Origin: Thermococcus pacificus
GTDB taxonomy: Archaea; Methanobacteriota_B; Thermococci; Thermococcales; Thermococcaceae
Assembly: GCF_002214485.1 (NCBI RefSeq)
Contig: NZ_CP015102.1
Span: 1,116,001-1,180,000, forward strand
Reading direction: 5' to 3'
Length of the DNA stretch: 64,000 nt
Each line of letters begins with the position of its first letter. The first letter of the stretch is position 1. Under the pieces are notes generated by a model, which was not told where the DNA came from, did not search any database, and saw only the letters and a list, made by a program, of their open reading frames with translations. Shown piece by piece: positions 36,470 through 57,849 of this stretch. Position numbers and translations under genes: made by a program.

Positions 36470-37762
36470 TCAGAGCCTCGCCACGTGCACAGAACAGGAG
36501 AGGCACGGGTCGTAGGCCCTAACGACCATTTCCGCGAGGAGCTTCAGTCTCTCCGGGTCGTCGTTGTAGTGCTTCTCGGCCATCATCCTGACGTGTTGCT
36601 CCATCATTGCGAGGTTGAACGCTGTCGGCGTTATGATGTCCGCGTAGGAAACCCTTCCGTTCTCAACTTTGAGAGCATACACCAGCACTCCGCGCGGTGC
36701 TTCCGTTGTGGAAACGCCGAAGCCGTCCCTTATCTCGACCTCGTCCCTCGGCTTTACAGGCCACTTCGCGAGGACCTCGTCTATGAGGTCTATCGCCCTT
36801 TCCGTGAAGTAGACGAGCTCGAGGGCCTGGGCGAGGTTGTTGGCGAATGGGTTGGTTGCCCTAAGCAGGTCTTTGTGGGCCTCATAGAGCTCCTTAGCTT
36901 TCCCGTAGAGCGTTCCTGCGTTGTTGACGAGGCGCGATATGGCTCCAACCATGAAGGGCTTCCCGTGGTAGTGGCTGTGCTTGGCGAAGCTGTGCTCCAC
37001 CACGAACTCCTTTATGTGCTCTTTATACTCTTCACTCGGGAACTCGTTGCCGTCGCTCGCCTTGAGGTAGTCGCCGTAGATTCCGTAGACGTCTCCCCTC
37101 GGCTTCACAGCTATGTGAGTTATCAGCCCCTCAACCTCCTCGTACTGCTCCAGCTTGGTGAAGAGCTCGAAGGTGTATTCAGCCTTCGGAAGGGCCTCCT
37201 TAAGGCGCTTCTTCATCGTCTCGAGGACACTTTTGTCCGGGAGCTTTCCGAAACCGCCCATTACCACGTTCTCCTGGTGGATTGCCCTTGAGCCAAGCTC
37301 GTCCATCATCCATGAGCCGAGGTTTTTGAGGTCGAGCGCTATGCCAATCTCTTTCTTGTATTCCTCAATCATGTGGAGCGGCCCGGAGTAGCCGAGGTAG
37401 TCGGGAAGCACTAAGAGGTAGAGATGTAGGGCGTGGCTCTCTATCATGTCTCCTATGTAGAGAACCTCCCTCAAAGCCTGTATCTCCTCGCGCGGGGTGA
37501 AGCCGACGGCCTTTTCGGCAGCTTCGACCGCGGTAAGCTTGTGGGCGGCGGAACAGAAGGAGCATATCCTCGGGTAGATTGCAAGTGCCTCGTCAACTTT
37601 CTTGCCGAGGGATATTGCCTCGAAGAACCTCGGACCTTCGATGATGTTGAGCTTGACCTCCTTAACGCCGTCGTCGCCGACGACTATCTCAACTCCTCCT
37701 TTGCCTTCAATCCTCGCTATGTGGTCAATGGTGATCGGTAGGTAGAGGTTCTTCATGCTCAT
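36470..37762 (-). CDS. hyhL: Cytosolic NiFe-hydrogenase (sulfhydrogenase I) alpha/large subunit
   Basis: 430 residues. Catalytic Ni-Fe subunit of the group 3b NADP(H)-linked hydrogenase. Ni ligands: RICSFC (Cys67, Cys70) and the C-terminal DPCLSC (Cys420, Cys423) with His426. Only four residues (VARL) follow, the peptide removed by the maturation protease. ATG overlaps the small-subunit stop (ATGA) with GGGGGTGAAAG upstream. Last gene of hyhBGSL. Confidence 0.96.
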
Positions 37763-38556
37763 TCTTTCACCCCCTCGAATATCTTGTTAACCATCTCCTC
37801 AAGCTTCGGGTTGTGGGCGTTGAATATCTTCATGCGCTCAAGGATTTCCTCCTTAGTTAGGCCCTTCTCCCTGAAGACCCTCGCGAGTGAGTCGAACCAT
37901 GCAACGTCGTAGCCTATCGCTCCCCTGCAACCGATGCACGCTATTCCGTAGGCGGGACAGCGAGCGTTACAGCCAGCCCTTGTGACCGGGCCCAGGCATG
38001 GCTCGCCCTTCTCAAGGAGCACGCAGGAGTTTCCGTTCAGGCGGCACTCAAGGCAGACGGGATAGTCAATGTCCTCGGGCCACGAGCCTATTAGGAGGGT
38101 TCCAATGGCGTAGACGAAGTCCTTTTTCTCCGGTGGACAGCCGTAGATTTTGTAATCAACCTTGATGTATTTCTCGACCGGCTCGGCCATCTTCGGCTGG
38201 AACTTGACCGTCCCGTCGCCGTAAACTGTTTTCCAGAGCTCATCGAGGCTCTTATCCTTCTCCCAGCTCTGAACTCCACCGTGAACCGCACACGAGCCGA
38301 CCGCAACGACAGTCTTGGCGTTCTCGCGTATCTTCTTCACCAGCTCAACTTCTTCCTCGGTTGAAACACTCCCCTCGATGAAGGCTATGTCAACGGGCTC
38401 GATCTCCTTGCTGTCCCTTTCGAGCATGTACCAGCAGACGATTTCGGCGTTCGGGAGGAGCTGGAGTATCTCGTCCATCATGGCAAACTGGAGCTGACAT
38501 CCGTAGCATGAGGTGAGGGCGTAAAACCCAATGCGAACTTTTCCGTTTTCTTCCAT
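37759..38556 (-). CDS. hyhS: Cytosolic NiFe-hydrogenase delta/small subunit
   Basis: 265 residues. Small subunit carrying three FeS clusters: proximal CYGCQ...GSCAVHGG...YGCPPEKK, and distal cysteines [39 protein letters not shown] 38556 with GGTGGTGGAG is preferred. It passes electrons between HyhL and the FeS/flavin subunits. Confidence 0.95.
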
Positions 38557-38566
38557 CTCCACCACC

Positions 38567-39454
38567 TCAGTCCAGCAGTCCCGGCGTTGATACTATGTCG
38601 AAGTACGTGAAGACCGGGCCGTCCTTGCAGATGTACTTCCAGCTCGTGCTCGTTCCGACGTTGCAGTGGCCGCACTTGCCGATTCCGCACTTCATCTTCC
38701 TCTCCAGCGTCACGAAGATGTTCTCCGGCTTGTAGCCGTAGTTGATGAGCGCCTCGAAGACAGACTTGTACATCCTCGGCGGGCCGCATATGGCTACTGC
38801 CGTGTTCTTCGGGTCGGTGTTCGCCTCCGGAATGAAGTTCTGGGGCCTTCCGTGGAGACCGGGCCAGTCGGGATCGCGCGTGACGCTCTGGATTATCTTG
38901 ACGTTCTCAGCCTCAGCTAGGTCCTTCATCGCCTCAAGTTCCTTGTAGAAGAGGAGGTCTTTTCCATAGCGGGCAGTGTTGATGAAAGTTATATTGCCGT
39001 ACTTCCAGCGGTTGTCCATTGCGTAGAGGAAGACGCTCCTAAGCGGTGCCGTTCCGAGACCTGCAGCTATAAGGAGCAGGTCCATGCCCTCCCACTTGTC
39101 AACCGGGAAGCCGTTTCCATAGGGACCGCGGACGAGGACGGTGTCTCCGGGCTTAAGCCTGTGGATGACTGTTGTGACTCTTCCGGCCTTCCTTATACAC
39201 AGCTCAAAGAACCCCCTCCTCATCGCTGAGGAGCATATGCTTATCGGCACCTCTCCAACTCCGGGGATTGTAAGCTGGACGAACTGTCCGGGCCTAAAAG
39301 TCCACTTCTCGGCCAGTTCGGGATCCCCAAAGCGGAACAGGAAGAGTTTTTCCTTTTCGGTGAGAGGGTAAACCTTAAGCACCTTGGCTTTGTGAAGAGC
39401 GTAGGGGTTCTCTTCGGGCATCATTATCTCCTTCGGGAGAACCAGCTCGCTCAT
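38567..39454 (-). CDS. hyhG: Cytosolic hydrogenase gamma subunit (FAD/NADP(H) binding)
   Basis: 295 residues. Ferredoxin-NADP reductase-like: FAD domain with [23 protein letters not shown](P) domain [12 protein letters not shown] and CGPPRMY; C-terminal [2Fe-2S] cysteines [12 protein letters not shown]...YICKDGP as in the sulfhydrogenase gamma/DHOD PyrK family. It gives NADP(H) access to the hydrogenase. Confidence 0.95.
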
Positions 39455-40554
39455 AGGTCCTCACCCCTTATCTCGGTCGCGTAGGCGAATCCCTTCTTCG
39501 GGATCTCCTCGGTTATCTCAGGTGGACAGGATTTCTCCTCAAGTCCCATTATCGTGCGCAGGTTCCTGACGAAGCTTATGCCGGCCGGACAGAAGTAGGT
39601 GCACCTTCCACAGCCGACGCAGTAGCTTATACCCAGCTTCTCGTTGTAGGAGTTCTTGCAGAGGTAGCGGTTCCTGAAGCGAGCCTTTTTAGTGGGCCTG
39701 AAGTTGTGGTTTCCAGCGACGAGTCCATGGCTCCTGAGCTGGCAGGAGTCCCAGCGCCTCTCGCGGTAGCCGGTGTTTCCGTCGAGGTTCACTATGTCCT
39801 GCACCTCGTAGCAACGGCAGGTCGGGCAGGTGGTGTTGCAGTTGCCGCAGGCGAGGCAGATGGCAGCCTGCTCGTCCCACATCGGGTGCTCCATCTCGAG
39901 CTCAAGGAGGTAGCGGAGGTTGCTCCAGTCCTCGTGGTACTTGAAGGCATTACTCCTTTTGTTCTCGAACTCGCGGAAGTTGCATATGTCCTCCGTCGTT
40001 ACTTCCTTGAAGAGCCTGAGGTTCTTGTCCACTATCCTGTGGCCTATGGGAGTTCCAACCCTTACGAGCCATCCATCTGGAAGCTCGTGGAGGAAGAGGT
40101 CGAAGCCGTCGTCTGCAAAATCTGTCTCCCTGAGGTTGCAGAAGCAGTACTCATCGGGCATGCAGCTTATGCCAATGATGATACCCTTCTCGCGCCTCAC
40201 CTTGTAGTATTTGTCCGGGAGCTCGTCGAGGTAAATCGTGTCCATAATCTTGAGGCCGAAGATGTCGCAGGCGTGGACGCCGAAGAGCACAAAGGGCTCA
40301 ACGTCCTCGATGGTTTCCCTGTATTCCGCTTCCTTTATACTGAACTCGAAGAGCTTCTCCCTCGGCTTGAAGAAGAACTTCTTCGGCGGCATTATCGTCC
40401 TGTTGTAGTGGAACTCGACCTTTCTCACATCGTCTATCTCCCTGAAGTCGTAGAACTTCTCCGAGATCTTAACCGGGGCGTAGAGCTTGCCCCAATCCTT
40501 GAGCCGTTCGAGGAAGGTGTAGGTGTTTTCCTTTGGAAGTTTAACGTATCTCAA
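39451..40554 (-). CDS. hyhB: Cytosolic hydrogenase beta subunit (4Fe-4S)
   Basis: 367 residues. Anaerobic sulfite reductase A-like FeS protein: [16 protein letters not shown] and [14 protein letters not shown] carry two 4Fe-4S clusters. I place the start at TTG 40554 ([13 protein letters not shown] follows), six bases after GGAGGTG; the GTG nine bases upstream is badly spaced. First gene of hyhBGSL. Confidence 0.93.
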
Positions 40555-40635
40555 CCCAACCACCTCCAGTGAACATAAAGATGCATATGTCCATATCTAT
40601 CCCCTCAATTGAGGGTTGGTTTGGACGTAAAAAAG

Positions 40636-40889: not shown

Positions 40890-42761
40890 ATGCGCACCAT
40901 CGTCACGTGCTTTCACTGCGGCATTGGTTGCCGGGTGGAGGTGAAGAAAAAACGTTCACGTCCTCATGAGATAAACTACCTCAGGGATTTAAACGTCCCC
41001 AACTACTACGGCAAGCTCTGCTCGCGGGGAAATCTGATGTTCGAACCCACTGTTGAGAATAAGCGGATAAAACGCCCCATGAAAGCTCTGGAAGAAGGAA
41101 AGTTTGTCGAAATCAGCTGGGCTGACGCCCTTCGTGAAGTTAGTTTTCAGCTATCCAGATACGCCCGCGATGACCCGAGTATGCTTGGTTTCATAGGAGG
41201 AGAAACTGTATCAAATGAGTCGGCGTACCTATTTCAGAAGCTTGCCAGGTTGCTCGGCACCAACAACATTGATACAACTGCTTCCCTTTCCCAGGGGGTT
41301 TTGATCAGGCCAGTTCTTGATATGGGAGCGTGGGAGCACTGGGCAGACTTTGCAGACATCGACGGAGCGGATCTGATCATAGTTTGGGGAGCGGACCTGG
41401 CGAGAAACTACCCCGTACTTCTCGGAAGGATTGCCAGGGCGAGGGAGCGTGGGGCCAGGGTAGTTCTCGTGGATCCTGTAAATGGAAGGGCATCGAAATT
41501 TGCCGATTTCTACCTTCGCCCTCTGCCGGGTACGGACGTCTTCCTTGCCCTCTCCATTATGAACTATCTGGTAAAAACTGACGAACGCTTCGGGGCAGTC
41601 CTCCCGGAGGACGTCCTAAAACTCGTATCGAGGTCTCCTCCGTCGTATGGTGAGGAACTGACAGGGGTTCAGGAGAGGGATATAAAGGCCGTTGCACACG
41701 AAATCCTCAGATCCTCCGGTGGGATAATCCTCCTGGGTTCGGGGGCCGTAATGAATGAAAACGGTGCCTCCTTCGTGAGGGCAATAATAACGCTTGCGTT
41801 CGTTTCAGGAATGAAGTTTCTTCCCATCTCACGGTACGGAAACTCCCAGGGTGTCCTCGACATGGGGCTCCTCCCTGACCTGCTCCCGGGTTATACGCCC
41901 TACAGTGAGGGGAGGGACTTCCAGAAGGCTTGGCTCGTTGAGGGTTTGAATCCCAACCCAGGAAAATCGCTTGCCGAGATGCTGGACGGGGGTATTAACG
42001 TGTTCTATCTACTCGGGGCAGATTTAATCCGCCATATTCCGGGTGCCCTCGATGCACTTAGAAACGCGGAATTCATTATCATGCAGGACTCGTTTATGAC
42101 TGAGACGGCCAAGTTTGCCGACATAATCTTTCCGAGTGCCCTTCTCTACGAGGAAGGCGGCTCAACGACGAACTCCGAACGAAGGGTTCTTTGGTGTGAA
42201 AAAGCCAAAAGGCCCCCCGGTGAAGCCAGGGGTGCGGTTTCGATTCTTGGGGAGGTTGGAAAGGCCATAAACCTCCCAGGCTTCAATTACACCTTCCCAG
42301 AAGAGGTGCTTAGGGAGATCAGCCTTCTTATTCCTGATTATCCAGGGCCCAGGGAGTTAGTTGGAAGTCCTGAGGGGGCTTTACTCAAAAGACCCAACGG
42401 GGTAAAGCGGAAGTTTGTCCCCCTAATACCAGCCAAGCATCCCGAGGGGGAGGTACTTCTTATTCGGGGGCATTCTGGTCGGTTTATGCCCGAGTTACTT
42501 GCCGGAAAAATGGGGGAGACCGATGTTGTCCTGATAAGCCCCGAAGACGCATCGCGCCTCGGCGTTTCAAACGGCGACAGGATTTCGATTGAAGTGGATG
42601 GCAACAGGATAACCGTGAGAGCCAAGGTTTCAAACCGCACACTCAAAGGAGTTGCTGTGGTGCACTGGGACCTTGTGCGGGCCGCATTGCCGGCGAAGTC
42701 CTCTGAGAACTGTTTGGTGTCCAGGATCTATCCCTGCAGGATTCGGGGGGATGAGATGTGA
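40890..42761 (+). CDS. Formate-dehydrogenase-like molybdo/tungstopterin oxidoreductase, non-canonical active site
   Basis: 623 residues of the DMSO reductase superfamily. 4Fe-4S motif Cys7-x2-Cys10-x3-Cys14...Cys43 (TCFHCGIGC, LCSRGN), then molybdopterin-binding blocks colinear with E. coli FdhF (GTNNID; LDMGLLPDLLPGY; MQDSFMTETAKFADIIFPS) and a C-terminal beta-barrel. At the metal-ligand site, FdhF reads NNVDCCARV-Sec-HG; here it is NNIDTTASLSQG, so Ser134 and Gln135 replace Sec/Cys and His, while the active-site Arg region (SRYGNSQG) is kept. Either a serine-ligated metal enzyme acting on another substrate or a non-catalytic, NuoG-like subunit. First gene of the long operon. Confidence 0.85.
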   Translation: MRTIVTCFHCGIGCRVEVKKKRSRPHEINYLRDLNVPNYYGKLCSRGNLMFEPTVENKRIKRPMKALEEGKFVEISWADALREVSFQLSRYARDDPSMLGFIGGETVSNESAYLFQKLARLLGTNNIDTTASLSQGVLIRPVLDMGAWEHWADFADIDGADLIIVWGADLARNYPVLLGRIARARERGARVVLVDPVNGRASKFADFYLRPLPGTDVFLALSIMNYLVKTDERFGAVLPEDVLKLVSRSPPSYGEELTGVQERDIKAVAHEILRSSGGIILLGSGAVMNENGASFVRAIITLAFVSGMKFLPISRYGNSQGVLDMGLLPDLLPGYTPYSEGRDFQKAWLVEGLNPNPGKSLAEMLDGGINVFYLLGADLIRHIPGALDALRNAEFIIMQDSFMTETAKFADIIFPSALLYEEGGSTTNSERRVLWCEKAKRPPGEARGAVSILGEVGKAINLPGFNYTFPEEVLREISLLIPDYPGPRELVGSPEGALLKRPNGVKRKFVPLIPAKHPEGEVLLIRGHSGRFMPELLAGKMGETDVVLISPEDASRLGVSNGDRISIEVDGNRITVRAKVSNRTLKGVAVVHWDLVRAALPAKSSENCLVSRIYPCRIRGDEM

Positions 42762-43252
42762 AGAAAGTGTTCATTGACTTCAGGAAATGCATAGGTTGTC
42801 ACTCCTGCGAGGCGGCCTGCGCGAGGGAGCACAACGGGAAGCCGAACATATTCATCGTGCAGACGTCCGAACTTATGATGATGTCATTCAACTGCCGCCA
42901 CTGCGAGAATGCGCCCTGCATGCTCGTCTGCCCTGCAAGGGCGCTTTACAGAGACGAGGACGGGGCAGTTCGCGTTAAATACCAAGAATGCATTGGCTGC
43001 ATGCTGTGTTCTATCGCCTGCCCCTTTGGAACACCGCGTTTTGACGAGCGCCTGAAGGTCATGGTGAAGTGCGACCTCTGCGCCAACAGGAGGGCGGAGG
43101 GTAAGCTCCCGGCCTGCGTTGAGACCTGCCCAATGGATGCGCTGATTCTGGCCACCGAGGAGGAGATAGTGGAGATGAAGCTGAAGGAGGCCGCCGTCAG
43201 AAGGGAGGAGTTCATCAGAAAAGTTGGAGGCATAATGGGGTGTGGGCCATGA
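42758..43252 (+). CDS. Poly-4Fe-4S ferredoxin subunit (HycB/HydN-like)
   Basis: 164 residues, GTG start overlapping the upstream stop. Four 4Fe-4S sets: CIGCHSCEAAC, CRHCENAPCMLVCP, CIGCMLCSIACP and CDLC...CVETCP. It acts as the electron wire between the molybdopterin subunit and the membrane hydrogenase. Paralogue of the protein at 55734-56240. Confidence 0.9.
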   Translation: MKKVFIDFRKCIGCHSCEAACAREHNGKPNIFIVQTSELMMMSFNCRHCENAPCMLVCPARALYRDEDGAVRVKYQECIGCMLCSIACPFGTPRFDERLKVMVKCDLCANRRAEGKLPACVETCPMDALILATEEEIVEMKLKEAAVRREEFIRKVGGIMGCGP

Positions 43253-44673
43253 TTGACCTCATAATCTCTTCAATAGTGCTCGCCTACCTCGGTGTTGTGT
43301 GCTTTGTGCTCGATGACAGGAAGTCAGACAGGGTAATGCTCCCCCTGCTCTGGCTGTCTTCCCTGCTCCAGGTCATTGTTGCGGCGATGTTTTACCTATC
43401 TCCGAATCCGATTCACGCGGTGTTCCTTGAAGTGAATGGGCTCGGTGAAGTTTACGGCCTCAGGGTAGATGGCACGAGCGTCTTCACGGCGTTTGTTGTT
43501 TCAACGGCGGGAGCGGTGTTTTTGACCTACGCCGTTCGCTATATGGATGACAAGAACGTCGGCCACCCACACAGGGGGCAGAAGGGCAGGTTCTACGGGT
43601 GGATGATGCTGTTCCTCGGTTCAACCCTGGCTTTCATATACTCATCCACTGTGCTCCAGATGCTGATATTCTTTGAACTTATGAGCGTCGCATGCTGGGG
43701 TGTCGTAGGGTTCTATGGCAGCAAAAGGGCGGAACGGGCGGCGCTCAAGGCGCTCTTAATTCCCAACTTCGGGGCTATAGTCGGCTTCTACACGGCGGTG
43801 GCGTATGGCCTCAAATACGGGAACCTCGGGCTTGACTTCCTGGGGGCACTCCCAGAGATGGAGAAGGTGATACTGTTCCTGTGCCTTATGGTGGCCGCGT
43901 TTACCAAGAGTGCCCAGTTCCCACTCTATTCGTGGATTCCGGACGCAATGGAGGCCCCGACTCCGGCGAGTGCATTTCTCCACGGTGCGGCCATGGTGGA
44001 GATGGGGGTCTACCTTCTGATAAGGGTCGTCCAGTTCATGGAGCCTCCAGTAACCGTTTTCTACCCCATGGCGTTGATTCTGGTGGCAACCCTCATTGTT
44101 GCAATGCTCCAGTATCCGAGGCAGAGCGATGCCAAGAGGTTGCTGGCGTACTCCACGATAGCCGAGTGCGCTATAATGTATACCGGTGTCGCCATTGCCG
44201 TCCTCGGAAACCCCCTCGGAATTAAAGCCGCGCTCTTCCAGCTGATGAACCACGCTTACCTAAAGGGGCTGGCGTTTCTGACGGCCGGAACGTTCACATA
44301 CTACTACGGGACTCTGGACATGAGGCGGATAAAGGGCCTGAAGGAGACCCCCCTCCTTGCGTACTCATGGAGCTTTGCCCTACTTGGACTGGCCGGCCTG
44401 CCCCCGTTCGGAGTCTTCTTCAGCAAGCTCTACATATATCTCAACGCAGGGGAGATGTACAGTGTCCCGCTTGGAGCCCTGTTACTCCTTGTGGTTCTCG
44501 CGGACTCGGTGGTTCTCCTGTACTCAGCGCTGAAAAGCATCAACTCCATGGTGTTCAGTGAAGGAGAGCCAAAAAGGGTGGACGGAATTATAAGCGGGAC
44601 GCTGTGTTCGCTTATCCTCCTCTCCCTTATTTCCGCCTTTATCGGCTACGCCCTCCTGGGGGTGGTACAGTGA
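43249..44673 (+). CDS. Group 4 hydrogenase antiporter-like membrane subunit (NuoL/M/N family)
   Basis: 474 residues with about 14 helices, of the MrpA/D-NuoL/M/N family that couples redox chemistry to ion translocation. It has the conserved glutamate helix IFFELMSVACW and the lysine/proline helix AFTKSAQFPLYSWIPDAMEAPTPASAFLHGAAMV-type block (AFTKSAQFPLYSWIP). ATG 43249 overlaps the upstream stop (ATGA). Confidence 0.9.
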   Translation: MIDLIISSIVLAYLGVVCFVLDDRKSDRVMLPLLWLSSLLQVIVAAMFYLSPNPIHAVFLEVNGLGEVYGLRVDGTSVFTAFVVSTAGAVFLTYAVRYMDDKNVGHPHRGQKGRFYGWMMLFLGSTLAFIYSSTVLQMLIFFELMSVACWGVVGFYGSKRAERAALKALLIPNFGAIVGFYTAVAYGLKYGNLGLDFLGALPEMEKVILFLCLMVAAFTKSAQFPLYSWIPDAMEAPTPASAFLHGAAMVEMGVYLLIRVVQFMEPPVTVFYPMALILVATLIVAMLQYPRQSDAKRLLAYSTIAECAIMYTGVAIAVLGNPLGIKAALFQLMNHAYLKGLAFLTAGTFTYYYGTLDMRRIKGLKETPLLAYSWSFALLGLAGLPPFGVFFSKLYIYLNAGEMYSVPLGALLLLVVLADSVVLLYSALKSINSMVFSEGEPKRVDGIISGTLCSLILLSLISAFIGYALLGVVQ

Positions 44674-46451
44674 TATTCGCACTTGTATTTCTCCTGGCCA
44701 TAATCACAGGACTGGTGCTCAGGAACTCAAAGGTAGTGAGTGCCCTCTCAGCGCTCGCGTCCCTCTCCCTTGTGATCGAGGCCGCCAGAGGGATTACCTT
44801 CCACGCCTCCATCTCAGGAATCACCTTTGCCTTTGCCACCGATGAGCTGTCCAGGTTCTTCGCAATACTTGTGGGTGTGGCTGGCTCGGCGGTCTCCGTG
44901 TACTCGCTCTCCTACATGGGCAGAAGGCACCTTGTGACAGTTGCGTATCCTTTATTCGTGCTTTCTATGGCCTTGATAGTCCTTGCCAGGGATTTCCTTA
45001 CTCTCCTGATTTTCTGGGAGCTGATGACGGCCGCTTCCTACGTCCTCATCGTTTACAACTACGAGAAAGAGGAAACCCGGAGGGCAAGCGTTGTGTACCT
45101 TGTTACAATGCACGCCCTGAACACCGCACCCCTGATTATGGGGCTGGGCTACGTTTGCAGCCACGCGGGAACCCTCGACTATTCGGCGCTGAGCGGTACC
45201 GTGGTTCCTTCATGGGTTATATGGGCACTGACCATCGGGTTCCTGGCAAAGGCGGGCATTTTCCCCATGCATTTCTGGCTCCCAGAGGCCCATCCCGTTG
45301 CACCGAGCAATGTTTCGGCACTCCTCAGTGGAGTTATGCTCAAAATGGCGGTTTACGGGATGTTAAGAACCTTGGAAACGTTTGGTGGGGTGGATTCAAT
45401 AGCAGTCCCGATTGTGGTGCTTTCAATCATCACAATTGCCCTCGGCTCGTTGCTGGCACTCAACCAGAAGGACATTAAGAGGATGATGGCTTACTCAAGC
45501 ATCGACAACATGGGTTACATATTCCTCGCCATTGGGGCCTATCTGCTCCTTCCGGGGGAGCTCAAGGAGGTGGCCCTGACAGCAGTCCTGCTACACTCCT
45601 TCAACCACATGCTGTTCAAGAACCTCCTTTTCATGCTCTCCGGCAACATCCTCCACGCAACGGGGAGGAGGGACACCGGCATCAGGGGGCTCGCAAAGGA
45701 GATGCCAATCACGTTCGGGCTGTCCATCGTTGGAATCCTTGCAGTGTCGGGCGTGCCCCCTCTGAATGGTTTCGCGAGCAAGTGGCTGATTTACAGGGCA
45801 ACATTCCTGTCGAAAGATCCCCTCCTGGTTGTCGGAGGTGCAGTCGCACTCCTTGGGAGCGCGCTCACGCTGGCGGCTTACCTCAAGCTTTACCGGGTGT
45901 TCACCGGTGAGCCGAACGTTGAGGCCGAAGAGGCGCCCTTACCGATGCTCCTTGGCGAGGGGATTCTTGCGGCCCTCTGTGTTGTGGGTGGCGTTGTTCC
46001 AGGCCTGTTCCTTCATCCAGTGGGCCTTTCATATCCTGCCGAACTTAACCTCCCACTCTTAGCCCTGGTAATCGCTGTGCTCATTGCGTCCCTGCTCGTG
46101 GCACTGCCTCCAAGGGCGAGAAAAGGTGGAATCTGGACCAACGGAGAACCGGTAGAGGAGTTTGAGATAAAGCCGGAGCACATGTACACTGGCGTTTCGG
46201 AGGCAGTGCAGAGTATCTCGGCGGCTGGAGGCAGAATTCAGCTACTGGCGCTATCCATGGGCAGGCTCTACCGTTCGACTGAAGTGGGTTACATTGACGA
46301 AGCACTGTTCATGCCGCTGATCAGGCTCTCCTACGGGTTCGGTGCATACCTCAGAGAACTGTCGAAAGGGCTGAACGGTATGCTGGCGACAGCTTTCCTC
46401 GTGCTCGTGGCGATGGTAATCGCGTTCCTGGCCTTCGCGGGGGTGATATGA
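44670..46451 (+). CDS. Group 4 hydrogenase antiporter-like membrane subunit (HyfB/NuoL-like)
   Basis: 593 residues, GTG 44670 start overlapping the upstream stop, GGGGGTGG upstream. About 14-16 helices, with LIFWELMTAASYVLI (conserved Glu), GFLAKAGIFPMHFWLPEAHPV (conserved Lys and Pro), HSFNHMLFKNLLFM and a C-terminal lateral extension (residues ~480-593) like HyfB/HycC. Ion-pumping subunit of the membrane hydrogenase. Confidence 0.9.
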   Translation: MIFALVFLLAIITGLVLRNSKVVSALSALASLSLVIEAARGITFHASISGITFAFATDELSRFFAILVGVAGSAVSVYSLSYMGRRHLVTVAYPLFVLSMALIVLARDFLTLLIFWELMTAASYVLIVYNYEKEETRRASVVYLVTMHALNTAPLIMGLGYVCSHAGTLDYSALSGTVVPSWVIWALTIGFLAKAGIFPMHFWLPEAHPVAPSNVSALLSGVMLKMAVYGMLRTLETFGGVDSIAVPIVVLSIITIALGSLLALNQKDIKRMMAYSSIDNMGYIFLAIGAYLLLPGELKEVALTAVLLHSFNHMLFKNLLFMLSGNILHATGRRDTGIRGLAKEMPITFGLSIVGILAVSGVPPLNGFASKWLIYRATFLSKDPLLVVGGAVALLGSALTLAAYLKLYRVFTGEPNVEAEEAPLPMLLGEGILAALCVVGGVVPGLFLHPVGLSYPAELNLPLLALVIAVLIASLLVALPPRARKGGIWTNGEPVEEFEIKPEHMYTGVSEAVQSISAAGGRIQLLALSMGRLYRSTEVGYIDEALFMPLIRLSYGFGAYLRELSKGLNGMLATAFLVLVAMVIAFLAFAGVI

Positions 46452-47329
46452 TGAACGTTCATGATGCCGCTCCAATCATCGTGCCTTTACTGGTCCCCTT
46501 CCTTGATGGAGTTGCGAGAAAGGTTCGAGCAGTGATTCAGAAGCGCGTCGGCCCGTCAATTGCCCAGAGCTGGTACGACCTGCTGAGCTTTTTAAGGGTA
46601 GAATGCAACTCCCCCGTGGATTCCCTGGCGTTCAGGCTTGCCCCTTACATCGCCTTTGCGAGTGCAATAGGAATGCTTCTGTTCCTGCCCTTCGGAGAAA
46701 AGGCTCCATTAGGATTCAAAGGGGACATCATAGCCTTTATCTACGTATTCACGATGTTCTCAGCCGCCGTCGTGATGGGGGCTCTGAGCGTCCCCAGCTC
46801 ATACACATCCGCCGGTGCCAGCAGGGAAGTCACGATATCCATAGTGTTCAAACCCCTTTTTGCGGTTGTTATTGGAATATTTGCAATAAAAACCGGTGCT
46901 TTAACCATAGAGGGCATGGCATCTGCGTTAAAACCCTCAATATCAGTACTGGGCGCATACCTTCTGCTGGTTTACCTTACGTACGTTGAGGCCGGTTTTG
47001 TGCCGTACGACATAGCCGAGGCTGAAACGGAGCTCCTCGGGGGCCCCCTTGCAGAGTACAGCGGGAGACTGTTTGCAATTATGCTGTGGGCGTTCCAGAT
47101 AAAGCGGTTCGCCATGATATGGCTGCTGGCGTCAATGCTCGTCCTTCCATTCGTGGGAGGCATTACTGCGTTGCTCTTCCAGTGCGCTGCGTTTGCACTC
47201 ATCTTCCTTGGGATGGTTGTGTATGAGGCGATGAATGCCCGCTACCGTATAGACCACGCCGTTAGGAACGGGGCTATCGCCCTGACCCTCGGAGTTTTCA
47301 TTCTGGTTATTGCATGGACGGGGTGGTAA
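46451..47329 (+). CDS. Group 4 hydrogenase membrane anchor (HycD/HyfC/NuoH-like)
   Basis: 292 residues with eight helices. NuoH-family motifs: KRVGPSIAQSWYDLLSFL (RxGPxxAQ-type) and the acidic loop FVPYDIAEAETELLGGPLAEYSG, which links the FeS arm to the ion channel. ATG 46451 is better spaced from GGGGGTG than the adjacent ATG 46448. Confidence 0.92.
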   Translation: MNVHDAAPIIVPLLVPFLDGVARKVRAVIQKRVGPSIAQSWYDLLSFLRVECNSPVDSLAFRLAPYIAFASAIGMLLFLPFGEKAPLGFKGDIIAFIYVFTMFSAAVVMGALSVPSSYTSAGASREVTISIVFKPLFAVVIGIFAIKTGALTIEGMASALKPSISVLGAYLLLVYLTYVEAGFVPYDIAEAETELLGGPLAEYSGRLFAIMLWAFQIKRFAMIWLLASMLVLPFVGGITALLFQCAAFALIFLGMVVYEAMNARYRIDHAVRNGAIALTLGVFILVIAWTGW

Positions 47330-47330: not shown

Positions 47331-48965
47331 ATGATAAAAGAATTTGAGGCTCGGTTTGGCCCAATCCTTGAAAAGAAAACCCTTGGCGAGAAAAAAGTGC
47401 TGTACACGATAATGGCAAGGCCAGAAGACTTTCCGGATATGGTCAGGTTCCTTCTCGCTGGGGAGAATGTAAGGCTCTTTACCATGGTTGGGACTGACGA
47501 GAGGACGGTCGAAGATGCGTTCAGCATAACGTACTGGTTCGCGGACACATCCAAGGGGGAAATTCTGGGTTTGAGGCTATACGTCCCGGAGGACAGGCCG
47601 GTGTTCCCGAGCGTGGCCCAGTTCCACAAGGGTGCACTCTGGTTCGAGAGGGAAGTTCAGGACCTCCTCGGCGTTGAGGCGGAGGGCCTGCCTGACCGGA
47701 GAAGGTTAGTACTGCCCGACGACTGGCCGGAGGGGGTCTATCCCCTCAGGGAGGACTTCAAGTACTCGGAAAGTCCGCCGGGCGAGAAGAAGTATCCTTA
47801 CGTCCGGCCTCCAGAGGGCTCGAGTGTCCACGCTATAGGGCCTTACCACATCGCCCTTGATGAGCCCGCACACTTCAGGCTCTTTGTCAAAGGGGAGGAA
47901 ATCGTAGGCGTCGATTACAGAGGCTTCTACTCCCACAGGGGGATTGAAAAGCTCGCGAGGGGCAGGCTGAACTACAACCAGATATGTTTCATCGCCGAGA
48001 GAATCTGCGGAATATGTGGCTTCTCCCATTCAACGGTCTATGCTCAAGCGATAGAGGAGGCCGCAGGAATAGAAGTCCCTGAGAGGGCGGAGTACATCAG
48101 AACGCTGCTTCTCGAACTCGAACGGCTTCACTCCCACCTCCTCTGGATCGGTGTCGCAGCACACCTCGTCGGCTTTGACACGGCCTTCATGGATGTATGG
48201 CGTATAAGGGAAAGGGTCATGTGGCTGGCCGAGAGGTTAACCGGGAACAGAAAGACCTACGGGCTCGTTGTCGTTGGAGGCGTAAGGAGAGACCTCCTTG
48301 ACTACAGGAGAGAGCTCGTAGAGCGGGAACTCGCTGTGCTGAAGAAGGAATTCGACAATGTTGTGGAGTTCCTATTGTCCTCCAGGGGGTTCATCAAAAG
48401 ATGCGAAGGGGTTGGAGTGCTGCCAAAAGAAAAGGCAAGGGCCTGGGACGTGTGCGGACCGGTTGCAAGGGCTTCCGGCGTGGACTACGACGTCAGGAGG
48501 GACTTTCCCTACGCGGCATACGGAGATTTGAGCTTTGAAGTTCCCCTCGAGAAGGAAGGGGACGTTCTGGCGAGGGCCAAGGTTAGGATAGAGGAGGTAA
48601 AACAGAGTATTTCACTAATCGAGCAGGTTCTCGACGCGATGCCCGGTGGGAGCATCTTAGCGGACTTCGGAGACATCCCGGAGGGGGCAGAAGGAATCTC
48701 CGCCGTGGAGGCCCCCAGAGGTGAGAACGTGCACTACGTCCTGACAGGAGACAGGAACACCCTCTACCGCTGGCGTGTGAAGGCCGCCACATACAACAAC
48801 CTGCAGGCCGTGCCGGACATGCTCGTCGGGTATACTATAGCGGACGCACCTTTGATTATAGCCAGTATCGACCCGTGCTACTCCTGCACCGAGAGGGTTC
48901 AGGTGGTCGATATCGAGAGCGGAAAGTCAAGGGTGGTGAGACTGGGGGTGGGAATTTGCCTGTGA
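47331..48965 (+). CDS. Group 4 NiFe-hydrogenase large subunit (NuoC-NuoD fusion, HycE/HyfG-like)
   Basis: 544 residues. Residues ~1-150 are the NuoC-like domain (FHKGALWFEREVQDLLGVEAEG); the rest is NuoD-like. All four Ni-ligating cysteines are present: Cys226 and Cys229 (RICGIC) and Cys516 and Cys519 (DPCYSC), so it is a true hydrogenase, not an Mbx/Nuo relative. As in E. coli HycE, Arg522 replaces the usual His (DPCYSCTER), followed by a C-terminal extension of 22 residues. ATG 47331 has GGGGTGGT upstream. Confidence 0.94.
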   Translation: MIKEFEARFGPILEKKTLGEKKVLYTIMARPEDFPDMVRFLLAGENVRLFTMVGTDERTVEDAFSITYWFADTSKGEILGLRLYVPEDRPVFPSVAQFHKGALWFEREVQDLLGVEAEGLPDRRRLVLPDDWPEGVYPLREDFKYSESPPGEKKYPYVRPPEGSSVHAIGPYHIALDEPAHFRLFVKGEEIVGVDYRGFYSHRGIEKLARGRLNYNQICFIAERICGICGFSHSTVYAQAIEEAAGIEVPERAEYIRTLLLELERLHSHLLWIGVAAHLVGFDTAFMDVWRIRERVMWLAERLTGNRKTYGLVVVGGVRRDLLDYRRELVERELAVLKKEFDNVVEFLLSSRGFIKRCEGVGVLPKEKARAWDVCGPVARASGVDYDVRRDFPYAAYGDLSFEVPLEKEGDVLARAKVRIEEVKQSISLIEQVLDAMPGGSILADFGDIPEGAEGISAVEAPRGENVHYVLTGDRNTLYRWRVKAATYNNLQAVPDMLVGYTIADAPLIIASIDPCYSCTERVQVVDIESGKSRVVRLGVGICL

Positions 48966-49447
48966 CCAAGATGTACCCATTCGAGCCTGCCGAGGCTCCC
49001 CCAGAGTACAGGGGTATTCCCCGCATTGACCCAGTGCTCTGCATAGGCTGCGGCGCCTGCGCCAACGCCTGCCCGCCGAACGCGATACTGAGGATAGACG
49101 ACCCGGAAAGCGGGATGAGGAGGATAGTTCTCGACGTGGGCAGGTGCATAAGGTGCGCCCGCTGCGAGGAAGTCTGCCCGACGGGTGCGGCCAGACTAAC
49201 CGCGGAGTTTGAGGCCGCCACAGATGACAGGCGTGATCACGTGGAGGTCGTTGAGCTGAAGCTCGCCAGGTGCAGGAACTGCGGGAGGTATACCCACTAC
49301 ACTGAAAGACAGGTGGCGAAGGTTCTGTCTCTGATTCCCAGGGGAATCCTCGACTTTGACAGGGTGAGGGAAAAACTCCCCCTCTGTTCAGAGTGCAAGC
49401 TGAAACTAACGGTACTCAACGCCACCAAGTTCGGGGAGGGTGAGTAG
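48956..49447 (+). CDS. 2x4Fe-4S ferredoxin-type subunit (NuoI/HyfH-like)
   Basis: 163 residues. CIGCGACANACP and CIRCARCEEVCP form two 4Fe-4S clusters; a further C-terminal group CRNCGR...CSECK may bind metal. Start uncertain: TTG 48956 is five bases from GGGGGTG; GTG 48962 and ATG 48971 are alternatives. It relays electrons to the NuoB-like small subunit. Confidence 0.88.
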   Translation: MPVTKMYPFEPAEAPPEYRGIPRIDPVLCIGCGACANACPPNAILRIDDPESGMRRIVLDVGRCIRCARCEEVCPTGAARLTAEFEAATDDRRDHVEVVELKLARCRNCGRYTHYTERQVAKVLSLIPRGILDFDRVREKLPLCSECKLKLTVLNATKFGEGE

Positions 49448-50211: not shown

Positions 50212-50416
50212 AGTTTCCAGGGTGCTGGACCACTTCGAGTCCAGCGCACTGGTCGAGGAGGTAATCTGCGAGATAAGCCCCGAAACCGCGAGTCTGCTGG
50301 AGAAAGGGGTCTTTGACATCGTAGCGTTTCCCAGGGAGGACAGGGAGGTAGTAAAAAAACACCTGGAGACCATCAAGAAAGGAGAAATCACGGTGGGGTG
50401 GGTTCCCGATGTTTGA
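50162..50416 (+). CDS. Small conserved-looking protein between hydrogenase and Mrp modules
   Basis: 84 residues, unknown. Soluble, acidic alpha/beta composition (SLGFQNEVSRVLDHFESSAL; GVFDIVAFPREDREVVKKHL; ending WVPDV). It overlaps the NuoB-like gene by 50 bases and the MnhF gene by eight, with GAGGTGGTGAG before ATG 50162. The tight overlap at both ends implies co-translation with the complex, perhaps as an assembly or coupling factor. Confidence 0.6.
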   Translation: MRAYLLRRGRSLGFQNEVSRVLDHFESSALVEEVICEISPETASLLEKGVFDIVAFPREDREVVKKHLETIKKGEITVGWVPDV

Positions 50417-50678
50417 GAATACAATCCTCCTCCTGATGGTGCTCTACGGGGTCGCTGGGGTAATCTATTTCATAAGGGTGCTACTGGGCCCCACGGTTCT
50501 CGATTCAATACTCGCAGGGGACTGTGTAAGCCTTGACGTCGCACTGATTGCACTCCTCATAGCGGTGTACTACGAAAACAACCTGCTCGCGGGGGGAGCC
50601 TTCTTCCTCGTTCTCTGGGCGTTCGTGCTTGACATCTTCGCGTCGAAGTACCTCGTTAAAGGGGAGGTGGGGGTATGA
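50409..50678 (+). CDS. Mrp-type Na+/H+ antiporter subunit F
   Basis: 89 residues with three helices and the MrpF loop GPTVLDSILAGDCVSLD. Start of the Mrp module that couples the hydrogenase to sodium transport. Confidence 0.9.
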   Translation: MFENTILLLMVLYGVAGVIYFIRVLLGPTVLDSILAGDCVSLDVALIALLIAVYYENNLLAGGAFFLVLWAFVLDIFASKYLVKGEVGV

Positions 50679-51007
50679 TACTCTCACTCATCGGGACTCT
50701 ACTGCTCATCGTGGGGGCGGTCTGCGACATATTCGGGGCCATCGGGATGCATCGCTTTGGAAACTTCTACCTGAGGCTCCACGCCGCAACCGTTGGCACG
50801 GTAGGGGGGAAGTTCTACCCCCTCATAGGGGTGGGTCTGATAGCTCTCGACAGAGGACTGCTCCCCATAGCAGGGGTGGCTTTCCTGAGTGCATTCACCC
50901 TGTTGATAACAACATCCGTTGGGAGCCACGCACTTGCATACGCCGCCGAGAGGGCTGGGGTTGTGAAGATTGAGCACGACGAGCTCGGGGGGGATGAGGA
51001 TGATTGA
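50675..51007 (+). CDS. Mrp-type Na+/H+ antiporter subunit G
   Basis: 110 residues with three helices and the MrpG pattern GAIGMHRFGNFYLRLHAATVG, and TTSVGSHALAYAA. Overlaps MrpF by four bases. Confidence 0.92.
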   Translation: MILSLIGTLLLIVGAVCDIFGAIGMHRFGNFYLRLHAATVGTVGGKFYPLIGVGLIALDRGLLPIAGVAFLSAFTLLITTSVGSHALAYAAERAGVVKIEHDELGGDEDD

Positions 51008-51242
51008 GCTAACGGCCCTTGCCCTGCTCGGCTGCCTTGGACTCGCATACCTCGTGGTCACTGAAAGGGATCTGCTGAAAGCAGTCCTGTACACGGGGAT
51101 CTTTGGTGGTCTCGTAATCATCGCAACGTACACCCTCATGGCACCCGACATAATACTCGCCTACGTTGCAGTTTCCGTCGCTCTATCCACAGGCCTAATG
51201 GTGTTCCTAGTCAGTAAAACAACCCGGGAAGAGGTGGTGTGA
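51000..51242 (+). CDS. MbhD-like / DUF4040 hydrogenase-antiporter subunit
   Basis: 80 residues with three helices: LAYLVVTERDLLKAV, FGGLVIIATYTLMAPDIILAYVAV. Equivalent to MbhD or the C-terminal MrpA portion. ATG 51000, inside the MrpG end, has GGGGGATGAGG upstream. Confidence 0.82.
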   Translation: MIELTALALLGCLGLAYLVVTERDLLKAVLYTGIFGGLVIIATYTLMAPDIILAYVAVSVALSTGLMVFLVSKTTREEVV

Positions 51243-51959
51243 TTGAGGATCGCTGGAATTCTTGTGATCATGCTGATTACACTCTCCGCCGCATACCTGC
51301 TGCAGTCCCACGTCGAGGACATCGTTGGCGTCGGAACACTCGGTGAGTTCTACCTTGAGAACAGCTACCTCGGCGAACGTTCTGCTGGCTCACCTGAGGT
51401 CGTTACGTCGATCCTCTGGGACTACCGCGGCATTGACACGTACTTCGAGACGGCAGTGCTCTTTCTCGCCATAATAAGTGCGGTCTCCGTGTTCCGGAGC
51501 TTTAAAGGGCGGGAATTCCGGGGAGACGGGTTCACAGAGATAGTCAAGATGGGAGTCAAGCTCGTGGCTTTTACCACCTTCGTGGCGTCTGCTTCGGTGG
51601 CGTTCCACGGACACATCACTCCCGGCGGCGGCTTCCAGGGGGGCTCCATGCTGGCGGTAAGTGCCCTGCTCATAATAGCCGGCTTCTCCAAGAAGGCCCT
51701 TGAGAGGAACGGAATAACAAAGACGCGGGCACTCGGGATAAGAACCTTGGGACTCTTGATCATAGTGTGCGTCGCGGTGTACCCCCTACTTAGGGGATTC
51801 CACTTTATGCAGAACCTGCCAGTGTATCCAGCCAAGGTGGGAGAACTCCTCGTTAGCGGGAGCCTGCTTCCCTATAATCTGGCCGAGTTCCTGGCAGTAG
51901 GGGCAGGATTTACGATAATCTTTCTCCTCCTTGCAAATCCGGAGGAGGGATGGCAATGA
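51243..51959 (+). CDS. MbhE-MrpB fusion subunit
   Basis: 238 residues, TTG start with GGTGTG upstream. Residues ~1-85 match MbhE/MrpA C-terminal segments (ILWDYRGIDTYFETAVLFLAIISAV); residues ~95-238 are MrpB with the hallmark HGHITPGGGFQGG. In Mbh-type clusters these are usually two genes, so this is a fused form. Confidence 0.87.
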   Translation: MRIAGILVIMLITLSAAYLLQSHVEDIVGVGTLGEFYLENSYLGERSAGSPEVVTSILWDYRGIDTYFETAVLFLAIISAVSVFRSFKGREFRGDGFTEIVKMGVKLVAFTTFVASASVAFHGHITPGGGFQGGSMLAVSALLIIAGFSKKALERNGITKTRALGIRTLGLLIIVCVAVYPLLRGFHFMQNLPVYPAKVGELLVSGSLLPYNLAEFLAVGAGFTIIFLLLANPEEGWQ

Positions 51960-52333
51960 GCTTCGCAACATCTCTTGTGATAACGGCGGCAGTTGCTACC
52001 ATGCTAATAGCGCTCTACGGAGTGGCAGTTAGGCCGAACCTCGTCAAGAAGGTGCTCTGCCTTTCCCTGTTTTCAGATATGGTGAACGTCCTTGTCATAT
52101 TCCTTGGCTACAGGGACGTCGAAAACCCCCTTCCTCCGGTTTTAACCGAGTACTCGAGCGAAGGTGTGACAAAGCTCGTGGAGAGAAGCGTTGATCCGCT
52201 TCCTCAGGCACTGACGATAACCGCGATAGTCATCGGCCTCGCCGTTACAGTCCTCATGGCCTATGGTGTGATACACATTCAGAGGAAATATGGGACGGTT
52301 GATGTCCGGAAGCTTGCGGGGTGGGATGAATGA
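51950..52333 (+). CDS. Mrp-type Na+/H+ antiporter subunit C (NuoK-like)
   Basis: 127 residues with three helices: LIALYGVAVRPNLVKKVLCLSLF, DPLPQALTITAIVIGLAVT (the conserved DPLPQALxLTAIVI of MrpC). GGAGGAGGG precedes ATG 51950. Confidence 0.92.
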   Translation: MAMSFATSLVITAAVATMLIALYGVAVRPNLVKKVLCLSLFSDMVNVLVIFLGYRDVENPLPPVLTEYSSEGVTKLVERSVDPLPQALTITAIVIGLAVTVLMAYGVIHIQRKYGTVDVRKLAGWDE

Positions 52334-52824
52334 GGTCTGTCCCCGTGATGATTTTGGCGTTCATAATTTACATCATCGTAACAGGTTCGATAACAGCTTA
52401 CGACGTAATCACCGGTGCAGTAACTGCCCTTGCGGCGGGACTGCTCTTCGGAAGGCATCTCGTTAGCAACCCGCGCAAGGCCCTCAACCCAGTTAGATGG
52501 GGGCGCTTTGCACTCTACTTTCTCAAGTACATCACGGTAATCGAGGCGAAAGCTCATGCCGACGTAATCAGGAGGATAATTAGCGGGGACGTCAGGCCGG
52601 GTATCGTTAAAGTGCCGCTCGACCTGAGGGACGAATACGCCCGTTTCCTTGTTGCCGCTTCAATTACCAACACCCCCGGAACCGTAACGGTTCACATGGA
52701 TGACCGCTATGCCTACGTGAACTGGATAAACGTCTCCACATCCGATCCCGAAAAACGCAGGAAGGAGATCCTTGAAGAGTTCGAGGAAAACGCGAAGAAA
52801 ATTTTCGAGGGGGGAGGAGCATGA
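52330..52824 (+). CDS. Mrp-type Na+/H+ antiporter subunit E
   Basis: 164 residues with an N-terminal membrane pair and a soluble C-terminal domain with SITNTPGTVTVHM, the MrpE signature. Overlaps its neighbours by four bases on both sides. Confidence 0.9.
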   Translation: MRSVPVMILAFIIYIIVTGSITAYDVITGAVTALAAGLLFGRHLVSNPRKALNPVRWGRFALYFLKYITVIEAKAHADVIRRIISGDVRPGIVKVPLDLRDEYARFLVAASITNTPGTVTVHMDDRYAYVNWINVSTSDPEKRRKEILEEFEENAKKIFEGGGA

Positions 52825-54353
52825 ATCTTCTAATACTGCCCGTCATTCCAATGGCCTTTGCCTTTGTACTCCCGTTGCTCTCCACTGTAATCAGGAACAG
52901 GCGCTTTATCTTTGGCTACGCCCTGTTTGTTACCGGAATAACGCTCTTGATGGGGGGTGAGCTCTTCAGGCAGGTCTATTCCTCCGAGCTCCCGCTGACC
53001 TATTCCTTCGGGGGCTGGAAGGCACCGGTGGGCATAATCTATGAAGTGGACAGATTTGGAGCCGTTATGGTGCTCGTAACGGCCGCACTTATGTTCCTCA
53101 CGGCTGTCTACTCGGTCCGCTACCTTGAGCGCGAGGACGGTGTGGAGTGGTTCTACACCCTTTACCTTGGCCTTGAGGCGGGACTCCTAGGCATATTCAT
53201 GACGGGCGACGCGTTCAATCTGTTCGTGATGCTCGAAGTGACGGCGATATCCTCCTACGGCCTCGTTATGTTCTACACGGAGGAAGGCTATCCTGCCTAT
53301 TCCGGCCTCAGGTACGCGATAATAAGCTCCATAGGGACGACCCTCTACTTCCTTGCCCTCGTGCTGATCTACCGTGGACTCGGCACGGTGAACTTTGCGG
53401 ACATCTCTGCGAAGTTGCACGGAATTGAATTCCCGATATCGACACCCTTAAACAGCATTGTGCCCATCCTCGCCATTTCAATGGCGCTGATAACGTGGGC
53501 CTTCACGATAAAGGCCGCAATAATGCCGAACCACTTCTGGCTTCCGGGGGCCCATTCCGCGGCCCCAAGTCCCGTCTCAGCGGTGCTGTCGGGTCTGGTT
53601 GTCAACGCAGGAAGCTATGGATTTATGAGATTCCTCAGCTTGATTTACGTCCCGGAAGTTTCCCGTATCGGCGATATCATCTGCACACTGCTGCTCATTC
53701 TCGGGGCAATCTCCGCCCTCCTATCCTCCATCGCGATGACCGTCCAGGACGATGTCAAGAGAATAGTCGCTTACTCAACAATACTCAACATGGGCTATCT
53801 GGCGATGGCAGTAGGAGTGAACAGCGAGGCCGGAACTGCCGGCGCAGTGTTTCACATGGTAAACCACGCGATAGCGAAAGCCCTCCTCTTCCTCGCCGTG
53901 GGTGTCTTCATCCACGCCGCAGGAAGCAGAAAACTGGATGAGCTAAAGGGGCTTGGAAAGAACATGCCCTTCACCACGGTGAGCCTGGCGATAGCCACGA
54001 TGAGCCTTGTAGGGTTGCCCCCTACAAACGTTTTCTTCAGCAAACTTTTGCTTTACAGGGCCTACATAGAGAAAAGCCCAGTCCTCGTTGCAGTACTTCT
54101 GTTATCGAGTCTATTTGCTCTGGTAAGCTATATGAGGGTGCTTTACTGGCTATGGGTTAAAAAGCCAGATGAAAAGAGAGAGGCTCACGAACCACGTTCG
54201 ATGGTGGCAGTGCTTGTGATACTGGCCATTGCGTGTCTGGTCATTGGAGTACTCTCCCCAATTCTGGTAGACCGGGTTGTGAACCCTGCCGTGGCCCAGC
54301 TGAAGGACGTGGAGGGCTACATACGGGCTGCACTCACCACGGGGGTGAAGTAG
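52821..54353 (+). CDS. Mrp-type Na+/H+ antiporter subunit D (NuoM/N-like)
   Basis: 510 residues with about 14 helices. Family features: LFVMLEVTAISSYGLV (conserved Glu), TWAFTIKAAIMPNHFWLPGAHSAAPSP (conserved Lys, Pro), FHMVNHAIAKALLFL. It is the main proton/sodium-conducting subunit and has its best relatives in Mrp and Mbh. Confidence 0.93.
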   Translation: MNLLILPVIPMAFAFVLPLLSTVIRNRRFIFGYALFVTGITLLMGGELFRQVYSSELPLTYSFGGWKAPVGIIYEVDRFGAVMVLVTAALMFLTAVYSVRYLEREDGVEWFYTLYLGLEAGLLGIFMTGDAFNLFVMLEVTAISSYGLVMFYTEEGYPAYSGLRYAIISSIGTTLYFLALVLIYRGLGTVNFADISAKLHGIEFPISTPLNSIVPILAISMALITWAFTIKAAIMPNHFWLPGAHSAAPSPVSAVLSGLVVNAGSYGFMRFLSLIYVPEVSRIGDIICTLLLILGAISALLSSIAMTVQDDVKRIVAYSTILNMGYLAMAVGVNSEAGTAGAVFHMVNHAIAKALLFLAVGVFIHAAGSRKLDELKGLGKNMPFTTVSLAIATMSLVGLPPTNVFFSKLLLYRAYIEKSPVLVAVLLLSSLFALVSYMRVLYWLWVKKPDEKREAHEPRSMVAVLVILAIACLVIGVLSPILVDRVVNPAVAQLKDVEGYIRAALTTGVK

Positions 54354-55732: not shown

Positions 55733-55733
55733 G

Positions 55734-56442: not shown

Positions 56443-56486
56443 GTGGCCTTTACTAGAGATGAATGAGCACATTTGGAGGGTTCATT

Positions 56487-57707: not shown

Positions 57708-57770
57708 GTGGACGCTTTCTTCTACCTTTTGATTTAATCATTTTATATTCTGTCTGCTTTGTGGGTATTT

Positions 57771-57803: not shown

Positions 57804-57849
57804 TGGCCTATTTTAAGGTCGGATTGAGAAGAACCCGGGGGAGGTTAAT

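Follow-up and report, generated by a model that had tools for sequence, protein, structure and literature searches.

Background

Two described arrangements in Thermococci resemble the operon analyzed here in gene order, in the divergent sulfhydrogenase operon and in having no transporter gene: the 'Group 3 fhl' arrangement, defined in a comparative study that noted the missing formate transporter (PMC10025317), and the fdhAB-mhyCDEFGH operon of T. litoralis (PMC2432063). In the accessible parts of both papers, FdhA is treated as catalytic. According to the accessible text of the first, 19 transporter-less strains neither grew on formate nor secreted it, T. litoralis and T. eurythermalis were negative for H2/formate interconversion, and transporter absence is the explanation offered for this physiology (PMC10025317). 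Takacs et al. reported that membranes of T. litoralis evolved H2 in a formate-dependent manner, described in the available portion of their paper as 'not fully reproducible' (PMC2432063).

Two systems of T. onnurineus share individual modules with this operon. Fdh2-Mfh2-Mnh2 (Group 1A) also combines FdhA-like, HycB-like, [NiFe] hydrogenase and Mrp modules, and the NADP-dependent formate dehydrogenase (FDH) Fdh3 (Nfd) contains similar flavoprotein and ferredoxin-type subunits. A Cys-His-Arg triad is assigned in active Fdh3 (PMC8965080). In E. coli FDH-H, the substitution K44R leaves approximately 7% of the activity and five other substitutions leave less than 0.23% (PMC12176258). Nqo3 provides the precedent for an FDH-derived subunit without Mo/W-bisPGD, and no archaeal matches are listed for it; the MopB lineages listed without a Mo/W cofactor (Nqo3, ActB and FhcB) belong to aerobic respiration or aerobic methylotrophy (PMC10100899).

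Results

Organization of the operon and conservation of its redox sites

The window, that is the whole stretch of 64,000 nucleotides that we analyzed (G000:C1:1116001-1180000), comes from a single-contig Thermococcaceae genome of 1,785,673 bp. It contains the following features:

36470..40563, minus strand: sulfhydrogenase operon (alpha, delta, gamma, beta), the divergent neighbor
40890..42761, plus strand: FdhA-like subunit (FdhX), 623 amino acids; N-terminal [4Fe-4S] cysteines kept, catalytic triad lost (HMMER/MAFFT alignment)
41289..41294, plus strand: Ser134-Gln135 (TCC CAG), at the Sec140-His141 position of E. coli FDH-H (alignment)
41829..41840, plus strand: Ser314-Arg315-Tyr316-Gly317, with Ser at the catalytic Arg333 position and a new conserved RYG motif (alignment; coordinates are 40890 + 3 x (residue - 1))
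42758..43252, plus strand: HycB/FdhB-like ferredoxin subunit with cysteines for four [4Fe-4S] clusters (domain match, motifs)
43240..44673, plus strand: antiporter-like membrane subunit, MhyC type (named by homology to the T. litoralis operon, PMC2432063)
44604..46451, plus strand: antiporter-like membrane subunit, MhyD type (PF00361)
46448..47329, plus strand: NuoH-like membrane subunit, MhyE type (named by homology to PMC2432063)
47310..48965, plus strand: large subunit of the [NiFe] hydrogenase, with the two Ni-Fe CxxC motifs (RICGIC, DPCYSC) intact
48875..49447, plus strand: NuoI/HycF-like two-cluster ferredoxin subunit (named by homology to PMC2432063)
49447..50211, plus strand: [NiFe] hydrogenase small subunit, NuoB-like (PF01058)
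50409..54353, plus strand: Mrp-type Na+/H+ antiporter genes (domain matches)
54354..54677, plus strand: 107-amino acid protein between the Mrp genes and the flavoprotein, conserved in Group 3 operons (locus comparison)
54674..55732, plus strand: NfnB/GltD-type flavoprotein, the proposed electron-input subunit; FAD motif GAGPAG and NADP(H) Arg204-Arg205 kept
55725..56240, plus strand: second ferredoxin subunit, 16 cysteines, partner of the flavoprotein (domain match, motifs)

As expected of a formate hydrogenlyase, the operon encodes a [NiFe] hydrogenase with intact Ni-Fe ligands and a membrane arm. The divergent sulfhydrogenase operon and the lack of a transporter gene within the operon agree with the Group 3 definition in the accessible text of PMC10025317. 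The sulfhydrogenase operon adjoins every Group 3 locus whose contig reaches far enough. We found no exact SurR site (GTTn3AAC) in the divergent promoter, and Groups 2-4 are likewise described as having none in the part of the source available (PMC10025317). The 107-amino acid protein returned no Pfam or NCBIfam match. Directly 3' of the operon (window 56463-60539) lie an iron-type alcohol dehydrogenase and then a Frh-type hydrogenase (FrhA, FrhG and FrhB homologues).

The redox sites outside FdhX are conserved. Wherever the Group 3 loci cover them, the RxCGIC and DPCYSC ligands are intact, each of the two ferredoxin-like subunits has 16 or 17 cysteines, and the flavoprotein retains its FAD motif and its Arg-Arg pair, Arg204-Arg205, which carries the same residue numbers in the Fdh3 flavoprotein (PMC8965080). 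Identity of the flavoprotein to its counterparts in Nfd operons is 66-76%, the value for T. onnurineus Fdh3B being 76%. All complete Group 3 operons that we checked contain this module, and in the loci of this group that we examined its block has remained contiguous with the other operon genes despite the divergence of FdhX to approximately 40% identity. Searches of 20 kb regions at three Group 1A operons and one Group 4 operon did not recover the flavoprotein.

FdhX has lost the catalytic triad

The FdhX reading frame runs without interruption across 40890-42761, and the protein matches Pfam Molybdopterin. Its metal-site loop reads NNIDTTASLSQG. We aligned it with E. coli FDH-H, one methanogen FdhA and Thermococcus FDHs; HMMER and MAFFT agree in placing Ser134 on Sec/Cys140 and Gln135 on His141, and no Cys-His pair was found elsewhere in the loop. 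The first-pass annotation, made from the window's letters, had described an FdhA homologue with Ser-Gln in place of Cys/Sec-His, and this description stands: the codons are TCC CAG, and Ser is found in all eight related proteins described below. Three trivial causes can be discarded, namely a sequencing error, as Ser recurs in eight separate genomes; an alternative alignment, as the two methods are concordant; and selenocysteine or recoding, as the codon is TCC and not TGA.

Further claims of that annotation fared differently. The [4Fe-4S] cysteines that it reported are present in 8/8 proteins, in FdhX as C7, C10, C14 and C44. The arginine-bearing loop, which it considered retained, is altered: FDHs read P-[VM]-R333-G-Q-N-N-V-Q-G and FdhX reads P-I-S314-R315-Y-G-N-S-Q-G, the Arg333 position being Ser or Gly in all eight (Gly in two) with Arg shifted one residue later. 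Colinearity with FdhF-type FDHs holds in part, with the loops equivalent to FDH-H 239-252 and 323-328 absent or shortened and the C-terminal domain poorly conserved. At FDH-H positions 140, 141, 138, 136, 44, 179, 301, 333 and 335, FdhX has Ser, Gln, Ser, Thr, Arg, Arg, Met, Ser and Tyr, respectively, and has hence lost the equivalents of Lys44, Asp/Glu179, Arg138, Gln301 and Gln335. Across the eight proteins, Lys44, the relay residue between cluster and pterin, is replaced by Arg in seven and Trp in one, and Asp179, its hydrogen-bond neighbor in FDH-H, by Gly or Arg. An AlphaFold model of FdhX built on a 12-row alignment had a mean pLDDT of 57.

The best NCBIfam model for FdhX is FDH-alpha TIGR01591, at 327 bits and below the curated equivalog cut-off of 666. 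Other proteins with Ser scored 336-346 bits, two of their Cys-containing sisters 493 and 504, one Group 4 protein 654 and four canonical Thermococcaceae FDHs 806-814. FdhX has the cluster cysteines of FDH-alpha, and lacks Cys/Sec-His-Arg, Lys44 and an equivalog-level score. Low scores against the Ser-ligand families (DmsA/YnfE 91 bits, BisC family 64 bits) rule out membership there, and membership of the NuoG family is ruled out by 120 bits against a cut-off of 470 (TIGR01973).

A Ser clade within Thermococcaceae

A homologue search in 94 genomes of this one archaeal family, which are unevenly sampled, identified eight proteins with Ser at the metal site: the window's FdhX, five at 81-83% identity and two at 48%. 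They are followed in the ranking by five Cys-His proteins at approximately 42% identity and then by canonical FDHs. A phylum-wide search outside Thermococcaceae returned no further members at E below 1e-90. The metagenome-assembled genomes (MAGs) of this group include T. paralvinellae SZUA-1476 and Thermococcus HyVt-34. In a tree built by a quick method, with long branches flagged, the Ser proteins form a single clade (SH-aLRT 100) that is sister to the Cys-His clade. The sister clade has Ala at Arg333 and His at Arg138, and includes the FdhA of the T. litoralis 'formate hydrogenlyase'. We take genomes G077, G018 and G026 to be T. litoralis, T. eurythermalis and T. onnurineus, respectively; in G077, the Cys-sister form adjoins the sulfhydrogenase operon.

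The residue after Ser is His in five and Gln in three of the eight proteins, and differs even among proteins more than 80% identical. S134, R315-Y316-G317, E105 and W148 are invariant and specific to the Ser clade across two subclades that are 48% identical. Canonical FDHs (41 proteins) share 167 near-invariant columns; of these, the Ser clade keeps 85-94, the Cys-His sister 113-117 and Group 4 119-134. Among the 46 invariant residues lost jointly in the Ser clade, 24 were replaced identically in the two subclades and 22 differently, which suggests that these proteins have been partly relaxed and partly re-fixed.

The Group 4 FdhA proteins, including T. onnurineus fdh1, keep Cys and have Gln for His and Pro for Arg333 (L052, L054, L071-L074, L086, L087, L091 and other loci). 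Judged by these residues, both transporter-less groups (3 and 4) are without the full triad, and the transporter-linked groups keep it. Group 4 FdhA is probably likewise not an FDH, or else an uncharacterized Cys-ligated enzyme.

Two Ser-clade loci depart from the general layout. In L035 (G023:C1:1081000-1100900), whose FdhX has the Trp at Lys44, apparent frame breaks interrupt several genes of the operon, likely through assembly errors and possibly through decay. In L039 (G054:C54:125500-145400), the first antiporter gene and the downstream Mrp genes are seemingly lost or disrupted, and FdhX, the hydrogenase, the 107-amino acid gene and the flavoprotein pair are kept.

FdhX is under purifying selection and co-occurs with its hydrogenase

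The FdhX frame is open in all eight members of the Ser clade, and dN/dS (Nei-Gojobori) is 0.18-0.19 between G000 and both G039 and G033 and approximately 0.1-0.3 overall, rough estimates that lie far below 1. FdhX is therefore under purifying selection. In the same pairs, the hydrogenase large subunit is at approximately 0.07 and other operon genes at 0.05-0.175, one antiporter gene and one Mrp gene nearly matching FdhX. The first-pass annotation had proposed that a conserved S-Q with intact pterin-binding residues would indicate a distinct enzyme and scattered substitutions decay. Neither pattern applies: Gln varies (3/8) and the pterin-domain residues are not intact, while the frames are open with dN/dS well below 1.

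FdhX has diverged further than any other operon gene in the comparison, with 49% identity for the FdhA-like subunit against 76% for the hydrogenase large subunit. Genuine formate hydrogenlyase operons show the reverse, 84% for FdhA against 70% for the large subunit, in the one genome pair with both values. All hydrogenase large subunits with at least 72% identity come from genomes that also encode FdhX. At synonymous sites, the FdhX-hydrogenase operon has diverged less than the sulfhydrogenase operon beside it (0.03 versus approximately 0.12 for G039-G016; approximately 0.4-0.5 versus 0.65-0.85 for G000-G039), which suggests exchange of the operon between species or an effect of codon bias.

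Formate metabolism in the carrier genomes

The formate transporter PF01226 was not found in G000 and is present in six canonical-FDH genomes searched alongside. It was also not found in 12 of the 13 genomes carrying the FdhX-type operon; the only one with it is a partial MAG, which encodes a second, more distant hydrogenase as well. The altered triad, the 327 bits against a cut-off of 666 and the absence of a transporter from the genome bear out the first-pass warning that 'formate hydrogenlyase' may be the wrong name. MobA-like proteins are present in every genome searched.

The only canonical-type FdhA of G000 (L002:1435-3480; G000:C1, approximately 586559-588604) belongs to Group 5 and reads NNIDNCARLCH. 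Its codon 562 is followed by an in-frame TAG, which corresponds to Trp in a relative; the frame is open beyond the stop. If FdhX is inactive, G000 may have no intact formate dehydrogenase at all. A third, distant molybdopterin oxidoreductase of 639 amino acids (L003:1387-3306; G000:C1:1444920) has no NCBIfam model above cut-off and an apparent sliding-clamp gene upstream. Our literature search, whose coverage was incomplete, found no earlier report of the missing triad, which is not noted in the accessible parts of PMC10025317 or PMC2432063.

Discussion

The explanation that we favor, with a confidence slightly above even, is that the product of the operon is an Mrp-coupled, complex-I-like [NiFe] hydrogenase rather than a formate hydrogenlyase, with a non-catalytic, Fe-S-carrying FdhX and an NADPH-flavoprotein electron route. 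From its residues, FdhX very probably performs no formate chemistry, and it probably also lacks a functional Mo/W-bisMGD. It would have been retained as a structural and, putatively, electron-relay subunit, in the manner of Nqo3/NuoG in complex I. Electrons would be fed in by the NADPH-binding flavoprotein and the ferredoxin encoded with it at the operon's 3' end, and pass via ferredoxin-type clusters, possibly including that of FdhX, to the hydrogenase; with H2 as the donor, they would leave through the flavoprotein instead. The Mrp part would couple electron flow to ion movement. Since key residues for formate are lost and yet FdhX is selected, the machine probably works on another electron source, of which NADPH is a tentative candidate. 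Three points speak against this explanation: pure scaffolding needs no invariant new residues such as S134, R315-Y316-G317 and E105; formate-dependent H2 evolution was reported for T. litoralis, though not as fully reproducible and with the Cys-His sister (PMC2432063); and the literature already accounts for the formate physiology by the missing transporter.

The flavoprotein genes at the 3' end may encode a complex of their own. In an overlapping variant, FdhX would still be a relay, electrons would come from free ferredoxin or the neighboring sulfhydrogenase, and the flavoprotein pair would be a separate enzyme. In these archaea, Mbh receives its electrons from ferredoxin, and the flavoprotein genes lie approximately 12 kb from FdhX, after the Mrp block. 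We consider this variant rather unlikely, as the block stays contiguous even where FdhX is approximately 40% identical, and in Fdh3 the flavoprotein that works together with FdhA has 76% identity (PMC8965080).

FdhX could also be catalytically active, with a Mo/W-bisMGD cofactor ligated by Ser134, and convert not formate but another compound, such as an oxyanion, an S/N-oxide or an aldehyde. Ser is the metal ligand in DMSO/TMAO reductases. Ser134 in 8/8 proteins, the other clade-specific residues that are invariant across the 48% split (R315-Y316-G317, E105, W148) and purifying selection all favor such an enzyme, and the partly re-fixed residues keep a new active site standing as a reading. 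We nevertheless regard it as improbable. The Lys44 relay, Glu/Asp179, Gln301, Gln335 and many conserved C-terminal residues are lost, some differently in the two subclades; FdhX scores far better as an FDH than against the Ser-ligand families; the ligand-adjacent residue varies among close relatives; and no dedicated substrate genes were seen adjoining FdhX. The first-pass annotation had offered either a Ser-ligated enzyme for another substrate or a dead subunit that only carries electrons. The latter fits better, because the Lys44 relay and many invariant pterin-domain residues are lost and FdhA is the least conserved subunit compared.

It is very unlikely that the gene is decaying, an incipient pseudogene carried by the operon. 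Its divergence, the variability of formerly invariant sites and the in-frame stop in the other FdhA of G000 would fit decay, but a pseudogene is rejected on the open frames and dN/dS; in addition, all Fe-S cysteines are kept, no genome lacking FdhX was found to carry the orthologous hydrogenase, and the 48% split means long retention. Least probable of all is that FdhX remains an FDH, with Ser for Cys and the shifted Arg315 for Arg333, in a true formate hydrogenlyase: its overall FDH homology and an operon type shared with T. litoralis, where the accessible text reports some formate-dependent H2 evolution (PMC2432063), are outweighed by the altered catalytic positions and Lys44, a genome without a transporter, and the H2/formate-negative T. 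litoralis and T. eurythermalis, which have an apparently less altered Cys-His form (PMC10025317, accessible part).

The operon also differs from the known systems. The T. litoralis type keeps Cys-His with Ala for Arg333, whereas the window's clade has Ser and has lost far more. Unlike FdhX, T. onnurineus Fdh2 keeps Cys-His-Arg and has a formate transporter nearby, with no flavoprotein found within 20 kb, and Fdh3 is soluble, with an intact triad and an operon without hydrogenase or Mrp genes. Nqo3/NuoG is similar in its FDH origin, its missing Cys ligand and its place in a complex-I-type machine with an NAD(P)H-oxidizing flavoprotein. FdhX differs in scoring 327 bits as FDH-alpha against 120 as TIGR01973, in having no extra N-terminal clusters and in its partner, a hydrogenase rather than a quinone site. 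More speculatively, and short of an even chance, the operon may represent a second Nqo3-type event, in anaerobic archaea and independent of complex I. The product would be an NAD(P)H-linked, ion-translocating hydrogenase with a former FDH as cofactor-free Fe-S scaffold; the Cys-His-Ala sister would be an intermediate and Group 3 would be misnamed.

A graded series in living archaea, from intact FDH through Cys-His-Ala to Ser-X-Ser/Gly and set within a complex-I-like hydrogenase, would show an FDH turning into a structural subunit. The missing triad would be a second reason, beside the transporter, why many 'fhl' Thermococci do not use formate, and it advises caution in vent ecology, where Group 3 and Group 4 operons should not be counted as formate metabolism.
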